From Anaerolineae bacterium CG2_30_57_67 (lineage in GTDB: Bacteria > Chloroflexota > Anaerolineae > Anaerolineales > Villigracilaceae): a stretch of 64,000 bases of DNA. Location: assembly GCA_001872455.1 (NCBI GenBank), contig MNXJ01000057.1, positions 124,001 to 188,000 of the forward strand. The letters run 5' to 3'. Numbering within the stretch: the stretch's first letter is position 1; each line of letters opens with the position of its first letter. Both the position numbers and the translations under genes were made by a program. Of this stretch, positions 30,611 to 63,216 are shown one piece after another. The notes below the pieces were generated by a model that saw nothing but the letters and a program-made list of their open reading frames with translations, was not told where the DNA came from and made no database searches.

Positions 30611-30659
30611 TATCAGTTATCAGTTATCAGTTATCAGTTGTCAGTTGTCAGTTATCAGT
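30611..30659. repeat. Tandem 7-bp repeat (TATCAGT) x7
   Basis: Seven exact-length units lie between marR and the first ABC gene: four TATCAGT, two TGTCAGT, one TATCAGT. Degenerate ACTGCTC units continue to about 30690. The array ends 8 bases before the SD-less ABC start codon (minus strand). Confidence 0.9.
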
Positions 30660-31340: not shown

Positions 31341-32276
31341 ATGGCGCAAGAAGGACGCAAGAAAATTACCCTGCCGTATCTGTTCGATAAGGTCGCCAAA
31401 AAGGAACCCATCACCTGGCTGACCTGTTACGATTATCCGACCGCCTATCTGCAAGAGCAGGCCGGGATTGAAATGATTCTGGTGGGCGACAGCCTGGGCA
31501 TGACGATGCTCGGCTTCGACTCGACCCTGCCGGTGACGATGGCCGACATGATTCGGCACGCCTCCGCCGTGCGGCGCGGCGCGCCAACCGCCTTTGTCGT
31601 CGGCGACATGCCCTACATGAGCTATCAGCCTTCCGTCGAAGACGCCATCCGCAACGCCGGGCGCTTCATGGCCGAGGCCGGTTGTGACGCCATCAAACTG
31701 GAAGGCGGCGCGGCGATGGCCGACCGCATCGCCGGGATTGTGGACGCTGGCATCCCCGCCATCGGCCACCTGGGGCTGACGCCGCAGTCTGTTTCCGCGC
31801 TGGGCGGATTCAAGGTACAGGGCAAAGACGCCCGCCTCGCCAAGAAAATCCTCGACGACGCGAAAATCCTGGAAGAAGCCGGGGCCTGCATGATTCTGCT
31901 GGAGATGGTTCCCGACCGCCTGTGCAAAATGATTACCGAGCGCGCCGAAAACTGCATCATCCTGAGCCTGGGTTCCGGCCCCGACGCCCACGGCCAACTG
32001 TTGATTTACCACGACATGTTCGGCCTGTACCCGAAATTCAAGCCGAAAATGGCGAAAGTTTTCGGCAACGCGGGCGAAGTCATCCTGAATGGCCTGAAAA
32101 CCTACCACGACGAAGTCATCGCGCGCCAATTCCCCCAGCCTGAAAATTGGTTCGGCATGAAGGACGAGCAGTTCGCCGAGCTGGAAAAACTGGTAGCCGA
32201 AGACGATGCTTGTGATTGCGGCTGCTGCGATGATGACGATTGTGACTGTGATTGCGATTGCTGCAAAAAGGATTAA
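31341..32276 (+). CDS. panB: Ketopantoate hydroxymethyltransferase with a Cys/Asp-rich tail
   Basis: The enzyme makes ketopantoate from 2-oxoisovalerate and methylene-tetrahydrofolate in pantothenate/CoA synthesis. It is a TIM barrel with LVGDSLGMTMLGFDSTLPVT (metal-binding Asp), VVGDMPYMSY, IKLEGG, IPAIGHLGLTPQSV and the catalytic Glu in ILLEMVP. The canonical enzyme ends near 265-275 residues; this one has 311. The last 24 residues (288-311) hold nine Cys and eleven Asp, mostly as Cys-Asp alternation after a CDCGCC block. That tail looks metal-binding and is not part of the known PanB fold. The start is clear from GGAGG. The next gene begins 2 bases after the stop. Confidence 0.96.
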   Translation: MAQEGRKKITLPYLFDKVAKKEPITWLTCYDYPTAYLQEQAGIEMILVGDSLGMTMLGFDSTLPVTMADMIRHASAVRRGAPTAFVVGDMPYMSYQPSVEDAIRNAGRFMAEAGCDAIKLEGGAAMADRIAGIVDAGIPAIGHLGLTPQSVSALGGFKVQGKDARLAKKILDDAKILEEAGACMILLEMVPDRLCKMITERAENCIILSLGSGPDAHGQLLIYHDMFGLYPKFKPKMAKVFGNAGEVILNGLKTYHDEVIARQFPQPENWFGMKDEQFAELEKLVAEDDACDCGCCDDDDCDCDCDCCKKD

Positions 32277-32278
32277 CC

Positions 32279-33544
32279 ATGACGGACGATTTACGCTCCC
32301 TTTTCGCCATTCCGCACGACCGGCTGGACGCCATCAACGCGGTTTTGCTCAGCCCCGACAGCCGCGTCATTACCGATTTTCTCAAAGTGGTCGAAAAATA
32401 TGGCACGCCCGAACAAATCAACGCCAAAGCCGCCGAAGCGCGCAAACTCCCCAACCTGCTCAAAAAAGTGGAGGAGCGCACGCCCGCCTACCTGAAAGAC
32501 CTGCAATGGCTGACGGAGCAGCGCGACGCTGGGAAATTTGCCTCGGTGGCGGAATACCGCCGCGGGGTGCTGGGCGCCAAAGCCGAAAAAACCACCTTCC
32601 GTGACGACTTCGCCGTCACCCTCGAAGTCTCGGCCTTGCAATACTTCCCCTGGATTCGGACGATGGTCGAACGCGCCATCGAAAAGCGTTCGCTTATCCC
32701 GGGGCGCTTCATCGCCGTCCGCAAGATGAAAGAATCAGAAGCCGATGGCGACCTGCCCGCGATTGTCGCCGCGCTGGAAATCATGGGCGCGTCCTTCGTC
32801 GAAACGCTCGACACCAAAGGCACCGACGGTTCCAACGTTCACCTGGGCGGTCCGGCGACGATTACCGGTTATTTTGGCGGCGTCGGCCAGCCCAATCACT
32901 ACCCGCTCAAATGGGTGGATGAATTTTTGTACTATTACACCACCTACGGCCTGCGCGAAGTCCTCAACATTAACCCCGGCACGGTGCTGGCCGGTTACAT
33001 GCTGCACCGCCTGGGCATTGACATCGAATTCAAGATTTCGGTTTTCATGGGCAACGACAACCCCTACGCCGCCCTGTGGACTCTCCTGGCCGCCAAGTTG
33101 TTCAGCCGCGAAGACGGCAGCACCCCGCTGATTGGCTTCAACTGGTCGAACTCGGTCAACAATGAAAGCATCGAAATCACCGCCCAATTTCGTCAGGCGC
33201 TGGGTTTTGAAGACGCGGTGCGCTTTGAACATCACATTACCGAAACCTGGAAATCCATCGTGCGCCAGCCCTACAACCGCCGCGCCGAACTGGTGCAACT
33301 GGCTGACCACGTTGCCAACATCAGCGCCAAACACGAAGGCGGTAACCCCGAAACCGATTCTGAGCGGGCGCACCCCTCCGACATCCTCGACTACTTCCGC
33401 GACAAAAGCGAAGTCATCGAAAGTGGTGACTGGGACGCCCTGCAAACCAACTTCCTGGATAAAGTGGACGCCGCCAACGACACCGCCCGCGCCCTGACCG
33501 AAAAAGGATTGAGTTTCATCGCCGCCGGTACTTTGCACCGCTAA
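32279..33544 (+). CDS. Conserved-looking protein of unknown function coupled to panB
   Basis: I do not recognise this 421-residue protein. The ATG at 32279, 2 bases after the panB stop, is chosen over an in-frame start inside panB. It is soluble, without signal or TM segments. The middle has a Gly/aromatic-rich stretch (HLGGPATITGYFGGVGQPNHYP, about 190-210) followed by LNINPGTVLAGYMLHRLGIDIEFKISVFMGNDNPY and NWSNSVNNES. A histidine pair appears in FEHHITETW and another acidic/His patch in HEGGNPETDSERAHPSD. This suggests an enzyme with a phosphate- or metal-binding site. Coupling to panB suggests a role near pantothenate or one-carbon metabolism, but it lacks the Rossmann motif of ketopantoate reductase. 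Coding character is certain; function is open. Confidence 0.85.
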   Translation: MTDDLRSLFAIPHDRLDAINAVLLSPDSRVITDFLKVVEKYGTPEQINAKAAEARKLPNLLKKVEERTPAYLKDLQWLTEQRDAGKFASVAEYRRGVLGAKAEKTTFRDDFAVTLEVSALQYFPWIRTMVERAIEKRSLIPGRFIAVRKMKESEADGDLPAIVAALEIMGASFVETLDTKGTDGSNVHLGGPATITGYFGGVGQPNHYPLKWVDEFLYYYTTYGLREVLNINPGTVLAGYMLHRLGIDIEFKISVFMGNDNPYAALWTLLAAKLFSREDGSTPLIGFNWSNSVNNESIEITAQFRQALGFEDAVRFEHHITETWKSIVRQPYNRRAELVQLADHVANISAKHEGGNPETDSERAHPSDILDYFRDKSEVIESGDWDALQTNFLDKVDAANDTARALTEKGLSFIAAGTLHR

Positions 33545-33989: not shown

Positions 33990-35768
33990 TTAGCGCATGA
34001 TCAGCGGGAGGTAAAGTTTGTAGTTAGGGACAACGTAAACATTGAACGCCGCGCCGTCCGGCATCGGCAAATGGTCCTGGTTAAAGATCCCCCACTTAAA
34101 GACTGGACTGCCCACGTAAACCACACCGATGGGGTGATTATCGGTTGTTCCACCCACACCGCCGGGGTTGTAGTTGGGCGTGACGATGATAATGGCGTTC
34201 GGGTTGTTGTTTGTCAGGGGATTGTCAATGTAGGTGATGTGCCCGGCGATATTTACTCCCGTCGCTGCATGGTGAACAAAGACATCAACCCCCGGGGCGC
34301 CTGTGTGAACCGCCACGTTAAACGCGGCGCCGACCGGTATCGCCACTCCGTCCTGATTAAAAATTCTCCACTGGCTTCCACTGTAGAACACGCCGATAGG
34401 GTGATCGTCGCCCTGTCCACCAACACCGCCGGGATTAAAGTTCTGCGTGACGAAGAGTATCGCATCGGGGTTGCCGTTCGCCAGTGGATAATCAATAATT
34501 GTTTCATCCCCGAATGTGTTTGCCGCCGTTGTCTTGTGAACAAAGACGCTCGCATCCGGGTTGGGTACCAGCACATTGAAGGCGGCATTCACCGGCATGG
34601 TCACAGAGTCCTGGTTAAAGATCGCCCACTGGCTTCCGGTGTACCACATGCCGATGTTGTGATTATCGTCCATTCCGCCAGCGCCGCCGGGATTGTAGTT
34701 CTGCGTGGCGAAGACAATCGCATTCGGGTGACCATTGGTCAGGGCATTGTCAATCATTGTGTAGTCGTTGACTCTGTTGCCCGCTGTAGTCGTGTGGACA
34801 AAAATATCCGAGACAGGAACCAGCACCAGCACGTTGAACGAGGCGCCGGTCGTCATCGCCCCCCCGTCCTGGTTAAAGATAATCCACTGGCTTCCGTCGT
34901 ACCACACGCCGAGGTTATGATCATTGTTCAAACATCCGCAAACGCCGCCGGGATCGAAGTTCGGCGTGACAAAGAGGATGGCGTTCGGGTTGCCGTTCGT
35001 CAGGGCATTGTCTATATAGGTGGAGACGCCAGTGGTGTTGTCCGCTGTGACCGTTTGAACAAAGGCGCCCGCATACGCCGGGAGAACGAACACATTGAAC
35101 GCGGCATTGAGCGGCATCGCCGTACCGTCCTGGTTATAAATTCTCCACTTGCTGGCTGATGTGTCGTAGTATACGCCGATTGGAAAATTTGCGTTCACGC
35201 ATCCGCAAAGATTACTGGGGTTCCAGTTGGGCGTGACCAAGATCCTGGCGTTTGGGTTACTGTTCGTCAGGGAATTGTCAATGAAGGTGTGATCGCCGCT
35301 GCTGTTGCTGGGTGTGGTTATGAGGGCAAAGACGCCTGTGCTGGCGGTGGGGATGATCACATTGAACGCCGCGCCTACCGGCATCGCCGCGCCATCCTGG
35401 TTAAAGATCGTCCACCGGCTTCCATTGTAGTACACGCCAATGGGGCGATTATTGTACTGTTGAATAACCCCGCCTGGATTGTAGTTGGGCGTGACGATGA
35501 TGATGGCGTCCGGCTTGCCGTTTGTCAGCGGATGATCAATGATGGTCCGGGTGTTAGTGCCATCAATATTTGCCGCCGTCGCGACGTGAACGAACTGAAC
35601 GCCCAGCGAACTCGCCGGAGTGATATTGAGAGCCGGGAGGTCGAGCAGTTGAGGCTGAGGCGCGCGCGGCGGCAGTGCGCCGCGCCCGGCATACGCCACC
35701 CCGCTGTTTCCGATGACACTGACCGTGACGGCCAGGACCGCCACCAAGCGAGCAAATTTCGTAAACAT
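33990..35768 (-). CDS. Secreted protein with six beta-rich repeats (DUF7452-like)
   Basis: The 592-residue protein has a signal peptide (hydrophobic core LVAVLAVTVSVIG, cleavage probably after AYA near residue 28) and six repeats of about 85-90 residues. Each has the order HTTTA, DNPLTNGNPNA, FVTPNYNPGG, IGVYYDGSQW, IFNQDG and AMPVGAAFNV. This pattern fits the DUF7452 repeat family as I know it; the function is unknown, though a surface beta-propeller-like adhesin is plausible. The protein ends in KLYLPLIMR, a tail shared with the neighbouring small secreted protein. The repetitive DNA produces long antisense open frames, which I regard as non-coding. A weak AAGGA precedes the start. Confidence 0.88.
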   Translation of the reverse strand: MFTKFARLVAVLAVTVSVIGNSGVAYAGRGALPPRAPQPQLLDLPALNITPASSLGVQFVHVATAANIDGTNTRTIIDHPLTNGKPDAIIIVTPNYNPGGVIQQYNNRPIGVYYNGSRWTIFNQDGAAMPVGAAFNVIIPTASTGVFALITTPSNSSGDHTFIDNSLTNSNPNARILVTPNWNPSNLCGCVNANFPIGVYYDTSASKWRIYNQDGTAMPLNAAFNVFVLPAYAGAFVQTVTADNTTGVSTYIDNALTNGNPNAILFVTPNFDPGGVCGCLNNDHNLGVWYDGSQWIIFNQDGGAMTTGASFNVLVLVPVSDIFVHTTTAGNRVNDYTMIDNALTNGHPNAIVFATQNYNPGGAGGMDDNHNIGMWYTGSQWAIFNQDSVTMPVNAAFNVLVPNPDASVFVHKTTAANTFGDETIIDYPLANGNPDAILFVTQNFNPGGVGGQGDDHPIGVFYSGSQWRIFNQDGVAIPVGAAFNVAVHTGAPGVDVFVHHAATGVNIAGHITYIDNPLTNNNPNAIIIVTPNYNPGGVGGTTDNHPIGVVYVGSPVFKWGIFNQDHLPMPDGAAFNVYVVPNYKLYLPLIMR

Positions 35769-63104: not shown

Positions 63105-63120
63105 GGGGATTGGGAAGTTG

Positions 63121-63216
63121 GGAAACAGGGGAAAAGGGAAACTGGAAAACAGGGAAACTGGAAAACCGGAAAACAGGGAAACCGGAAAACCGGAAAACCG
63201 GAAAACCGGAAAACCG
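63121..63216. repeat. Tandem 8-bp repeat (GAAAACCG type) x12
   Basis: Twelve units of exactly 8 bases. Those nearest hmgA are perfect GAAAACCG (63185-63216); units further along drift to GGAAACTG, GAAAACAG and GGGAAAAG. The array fills the whole gap between the hmgA stop and the lipoprotein start. Confidence 0.95.

Follow-up and report, generated by a model that had tools for sequence, protein, structure and literature searches.

The question raised by this locus is what function, if any, is served by a tail of 24 residues, consisting almost entirely of Cys and Asp, at the C-terminal end of a PanB protein. The gene for this protein lies within the 64,000-nucleotide stretch of DNA that was analysed (referred to below as the window), and the features upon which the discussion is based are as follows.

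31341-32276, plus strand: panB paralogue (PanB2) of 311 aa, matching PF02548 (E 8e-98) and TIGR00222 (291 bits).
32157-32213, plus strand: PanB2-specific C-terminal segment (approximately residues 273-291), from the phmmer alignment with 1M3U and the AlphaFold2 model.
32202-32273, plus strand: Cys/Asp tail, residues 288-311, DDACDCGCCDDDDCDCDCDCCKKD, from the translation, and predicted to be disordered from AlphaFold2 pLDDT.
32265-32272, plus strand: purine-rich AAAAAGGA in the last codons (Lys-Lys-Asp), from reading of the sequence, and likely the Shine-Dalgarno sequence of the gene that follows.
32279-33544, plus strand: partner gene of PanB2 (421 aa), with a predicted TIM-barrel-like fold and N-terminal helices, from co-occurrence and fold search.

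The original prediction of a PanB with a tail of 24 residues containing nine Cys and eleven Asp was confirmed by the translation, on which these counts are exact. In a Pfam profile search, the match to PF02548 extended over residues 8-266 with a score of 327 bits, and the NCBIfam score for panB (TIGR00222) exceeded the cut-off of 207.6. Residues D50, D89, E121, and E188 of PanB2 align with the metal/active-site positions of E. coli PanB in the phmmer alignment and are invariant across an alignment (A1) of 38 relatives; based upon their E. coli counterparts, we take these residues to have the same metal-binding and active-site roles. The model of PanB2 also has the PanB fold, with 1o68_B as the top Foldseek match (E 2.8e-28, TMt 0.89). 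The ORF at 31341-32276 is a PanB with intact catalytic residues. Its alignment with the E. coli enzyme (1M3U) ends at residue 271, and the segment beyond this point, which is common to the PanB2 orthologues, is modelled by AlphaFold2 as a helix at residues 275-290.

The same genome contains another panB on contig C55 (L001, G000:C55, 1387-3244), which is directly followed by panE and shows about 51% identity to the PanB2 of the window. Because of the presence of this canonical panB beside panE, PanB2 may have a role other than pantothenate synthesis. The gene that follows PanB2 has its ATG at 32279, which is 2 nt past the PanB2 stop codon, and its 421-aa product matched nothing in Pfam or NCBIfam and nothing convincing among the PDB sequences. 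This gene is present in 91 of the 152 genomes from the family, and it accompanies PanB2 in 82 of the 87 genomes where the latter is found (P = 6e-26, a value in which independence is overstated because the species are related). It adjoins PanB2 in most of the loci that were fetched and the pair is widespread in Anaerolineae. The structural neighbours of its model (a designed barrel, glutamate mutase, CutC, MTHFR, and transaldolases) are close together, all with Z values of 10-12, and they name no function; the predicted protein is a candidate for a new enzyme family working with PanB2. Other features observed in the window include a protein with six DUF7452 repeats (PF24249) at 33990-35768 on the minus strand and two tandem arrays, one consisting of seven copies of the 7-bp unit TATCAGT (30611-30659) and the other of four copies of the 24-bp unit AAACAGGGAAACCGGAAAACCGGA (63120-63216).

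In the translation of 31341-32276, PanB2 ends in VAEDDACDCGCCDDDDCDCDCDCCKKD, and the stop codon (32274-32276) comes right after the tail codons. In addition to the nine Cys and eleven Asp, residues 288-311 comprise only two Lys, one Ala, and one Gly. As Cys accounts for 0.58% of the residues in the long ORFs of the window, the probability of finding at least nine Cys in 24 residues by chance is about 9e-15 against this background, and the tail is the most Cys-rich stretch of this length among all window ORFs of at least 60 aa. The mean AlphaFold2 pLDDT is 55 for residues 291-300 and 53 for residues 301-310, with a value of 38 at residue 311; confidence this low is as expected for disorder, and the tail is predicted to form a disordered, free end after the last helix. 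Its Cys residues are dense (9 in 24 residues) and are arranged as CxC and CC, which is a metallothionein-like trait, and not as paired CxxC. Their spacing shows no evident Fe-S or zinc-finger pattern, and the suggestion that the tail might anchor an Fe-S site found no support. The Pfam profile search detected no second domain in PanB2, although a tail this short could escape such profiles.

PanB2 is present in 87 of the 152 family genomes and in 153 of the 400 genomes sampled from the order, but it is absent from all four other genomes of the source genus. The C-termini of 104 distinct PanB2 proteins and of 60 others from the order were inspected, and as some of these genomes are duplicated, this amounts to roughly 150 proteins. 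Nearly all of them terminate no more than about 8 residues past the core, and a Cys-rich tail is found only in the window protein and in one from a La Plata MAG (G107, L033/L137); the possibility that the Cys tail is a common feature of PanB2 was rejected based upon this count. The tail of the La Plata protein, KCDCDCNCDCNCDCCKTEKK, is in the same place as that in the window, and the C-terminal end of L137 reads IEADKNAKCDCDCNCDCNCDCCKTEKK vs. VAEDDACDCGCCDDDDCDCDCDCCKKD in the window. The proposal that the tail should be sought in Anaerolineae orthologues has had a divided outcome: a similar Cys/Asp(Asn) tail is present in G107/L033, so that the absence from all close relatives that was to point to a neutral microsatellite was not observed, but nearly all of the roughly 150 proteins, including L034, lack it. 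Lys-rich tails of 24-28 residues are present at the same position in four PanB2 proteins (L138, L151, L203, and L198). These four proteins sit in separate parts of the PanB2 tree.

Beyond these orthologues, no Cys-rich C-terminus was detected in 68 distant PanB relatives from viral contigs (44-49% identity, with frames read from the match), and none of the papers searched described a PanB with a Cys-rich tail. When genomes of the class were scanned for C(D/N)C(D/N)CC, matches were observed in 27 of 396, mostly in small or overlapped frames, and the only PanB among them was that of the window. Three small Cys-rich proteins of Anaerolineae (L120, L207, and L230, at around locus position 1500) contain CNCDCDCC or a similar array followed by a coiled-coil-like RRYRT..LE.YL..L..EVQAVEE helix. 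They share with the tail the (C-D/N-C)n-CC arrays, but differ from PanB2 in being encoded by separate small genes, in carrying the array toward the N-terminus with a helical segment after it, and in showing no detected homology to it. They are metallothionein-like, with a shared C-terminal segment RRYRTRAE..LE.YL..L.AEVQAVEE. No Pfam match above the cut-off was found for L120, and no protein of this type was found in the genome of the window. From these proteins it can be seen that bacteria of this class also use (Cys-Asp)n arrays outside PanB2, which counts in favour of the metal-buffer explanation given below. Within the genome itself (G000), the CDCDC pattern occurs elsewhere in a radical-SAM-like protein (N-terminal QCDCDCDCACG) and in a match in another frame inside a longer ORF. 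A locus at G000:C74:2553-2573 on the minus strand (L125) has radical-SAM/SPASM-like Cys motifs and an N-terminal GGQCDCDCDCACG array resembling the PanB2 tail. The CDCDC search, which would miss other spacings, found no other C-terminal tail in G000, and the idea that the tail is common to other proteins of this genome was rejected on its basis.

In the explanation that we prefer, and to which we assign about an even chance, the tail is a rare, lineage-restricted buffer or store for soft or borderline metals that is tethered to PanB2. The tail would be a dispensable, disordered C-terminal appendage, confined to one lineage, on a second PanB, and each chain would display 9 thiolates and 11 carboxylates, which could bind Zn2+, Cu+, Cd2+, and perhaps Co2+/Ni2+. 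It is not needed for PanB chemistry, because nearly all orthologues, including L034, are without it, and in this explanation it takes no part in catalysis. Nine thiolates that alternate with carboxylates in a disordered end are chemically suited to soft metals, and we infer that the tail binds metal. In motif comparison it closely resembles an (Asp-Cys)n peptide, and it shares CxC motifs and the alternation of acidic residues with Cys with bacterial metallothioneins, phytochelatins, and the (Glu-Cys)n synthetic phytochelatins. However, metallothioneins and phytochelatins are stand-alone peptides whereas that of PanB2 is a tail on an enzyme, and natural phytochelatins contain enzyme-made gamma-Glu bonds, unlike the encoded tail. 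The tail would most likely act in a metallothionein- or phytochelatin-like manner, in the way that SlyD and HMA4 use their tails of Cys, His, and Asp. As in PanB2, the SlyD proteins of E. coli and H. pylori carry an unstructured, species-variable tail of the Cys/Asp/His type on an ordinary enzyme domain, and the SlyD tail, which varies between species, binds up to 7 Ni(II) per protein (PMC7055735). SlyD tails are His-rich, whereas the PanB2 tail has no His and its only metal-type residues are Cys and Asp, and no hydrogenase link is shown for PanB2. The plant HMA2 and HMA4 proteins likewise have a Cys/Asp-rich C-terminal extension, with di-Cys motifs that in HMA4 give nanomolar affinity for Zn, and these extensions have diverged between species while remaining functionally alike (PMC6255694). 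They differ from PanB2 in that they belong to membrane transporters, are far longer, and metal transport is the transporters' own job. Those PanB enzymes whose structure is known assemble as decamers, with two pentamers stacked on each other (PMC7770189), and by arithmetic from this an assembled PanB2 would carry about 90 tail thiols. Counted against the metal-buffer explanation are the presence of the tail in only two of roughly 150 proteins, the lack of any trace of it in the close L034, and the moderate support (92/75) for the clade described below.

A different account, which we regard as rather unlikely, is that PanB2 tolerates short disordered tails after its last helix, and that in one lineage a neutral, low-complexity extension has drifted or slipped into GAY/TGY codons. 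The lack of a tail in nearly all orthologues, its loss or original absence in L034, and the presence at this position in L138, L151, L203, and L198 of Lys-rich tails that are unrelated but about as long are all consistent with this, as is the use of Asp codons, for which the GAT:GAC ratio is 8:3 in the tail vs. 2:16 in the gene body (Fisher P = 0.0013). This difference could be a hint of a separate origin of the tail. Codon context may or may not be the cause of the GAT excess; within the window's long ORFs, GAT is the codon for 7 of the 10 Asp residues that precede Cys, a small sample that includes the tail gene and ORFs some of which are maybe not genes. Growth by slippage had been proposed from the run of GAT/GAC and TGT/TGC codons. 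These codons are indeed present, but Tandem Repeats Finder detected no tandem array at 32202-32276 even with a minimum score of 30, so that the detectable array characteristic of a microsatellite is missing from the DNA, and synonymous codons are mixed (TGT 3, TGC 6; GAT 8, GAC 3). Recent slippage growth is thus unsupported, and it was rejected on the absence of a tandem array. Further, exposed Cys residues in large numbers are usually selected against.

The neutral account is also opposed by the retention of eight Cys, in CxC/CC order, in a second species at a near-saturated synonymous distance. In a tree based upon 103 PanB2 cores, from which the tails were left out, the window protein, L137, and the untailed L034 grouped together with moderate support (92/75), and the Lys-tailed L203 joined this group with support of 88/83. 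Both Cys tails are thus probably part of one small clade, and they could either have arisen once, with the tail then lost in L034, or have been gained twice; no relic Cys codons were found after the L034 stop. Between the cores of the window protein and L137, dS is 1.35 and dN is 0.063, indicating that synonymous sites are near saturation. Over the final eight codons of the tail that run up to CC, these two sequences show four third-position differences and one first/second-position difference (P = 0.028, for one sequence pair in one chosen register), and the contrast is not significant over 10 or 15 ungapped codons (P = 0.38 and 0.22), since over that length the two arrays no longer share a register. 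In a neutral simulation at the window-L137 distance, which starts from the window tail, assumes common descent and leaves out slippage and repeat turnover, about 1.2 of the 9 Cys were retained and retention of at least 8 was seen in 0 of 20,000 runs; the L137 tail retains 8. If the tails share descent, this supports selection on tail composition, and we infer that selection rather than chance keeps the tail. The lack of a tandem repeat, the mixed codons, and the Cys number and spacing kept at this distance together argue against a recent neutral microsatellite, although with two tailed sequences the evidence is thin.

The tail could also be a redox device, in which reversible disulfides within or between subunits would serve, on oxidation, to clamp the decamer, to cluster it or to protect it. 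Disulfides form readily in vicinal CC and CxC motifs, and in the AlphaFold2 model the tail comes after the last helix and is predicted to be free; however, neither a structured redox motif nor a conserved Cys partner was identified, and the alternating Asp residues resemble metal-binding and not thioredoxin-like motifs. We consider this account quite improbable. The original prediction further held that the tail might deliver metal to the enzyme. PanB requires a divalent metal and works best with Mg2+, but it also accepts Zn2+, Co2+, Mn2+, and others (PMC7770189). The Asp residues could, in addition, bind hard metals weakly. Nearly all orthologues, however, are untailed and have the same metal ligands where aligned, and the Mg2+ preferred by characterised PanB is disfavoured by Cys thiolates, for which it is a poor partner; delivery of the catalytic metal by the tail is for these reasons highly improbable.

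The last PanB2 codons, AAA AAG GAT, hold an AAGGA motif near the next ATG at 32279, and the end of the tail, AAAAAGGAT, likely contains the Shine-Dalgarno sequence of the 421-aa gene. As AAAAAGGA likely has this role, it may be the translation of the downstream ORF that fixes the KKD end. That the whole sequence is kept for a role in RNA or translation (as a spacer, for coupling or for ribosome entry at the next gene), with the peptide as a by-product, has very little likelihood despite the AAGGA just before this ATG, since the tail RNA is no more structured than its shuffles (z = -1.16, upon which RNA structure was dropped as an explanation), the L137 protein has the Cys tail even though the gene after it begins some 60 nt further on and has an AAGGAG of its own, and the eight C-terminal codons differ mainly at synonymous positions.

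Our results indicate that the tail is a real, unusual, and rare feature that probably binds metal. A bolder form of the metal-buffer explanation, which we consider doubtful, is that a genetically encoded, metallothionein-like (Asp-Cys)n module on a decameric biosynthetic enzyme, with about 90 thiols per particle, makes the PanB2 of a few Anaerolineae a scaffold that buffers or senses metal. If the tail does bind metal, it would be an instance of a housekeeping-type enzyme gaining metal buffering by means of a short C-terminal addition, and it would also represent a natural, encoded counterpart of the synthetic phytochelatins. The tail also brings into view PanB2 and the unnamed gene that accompanies it, which form a conserved pair across Anaerolineae.
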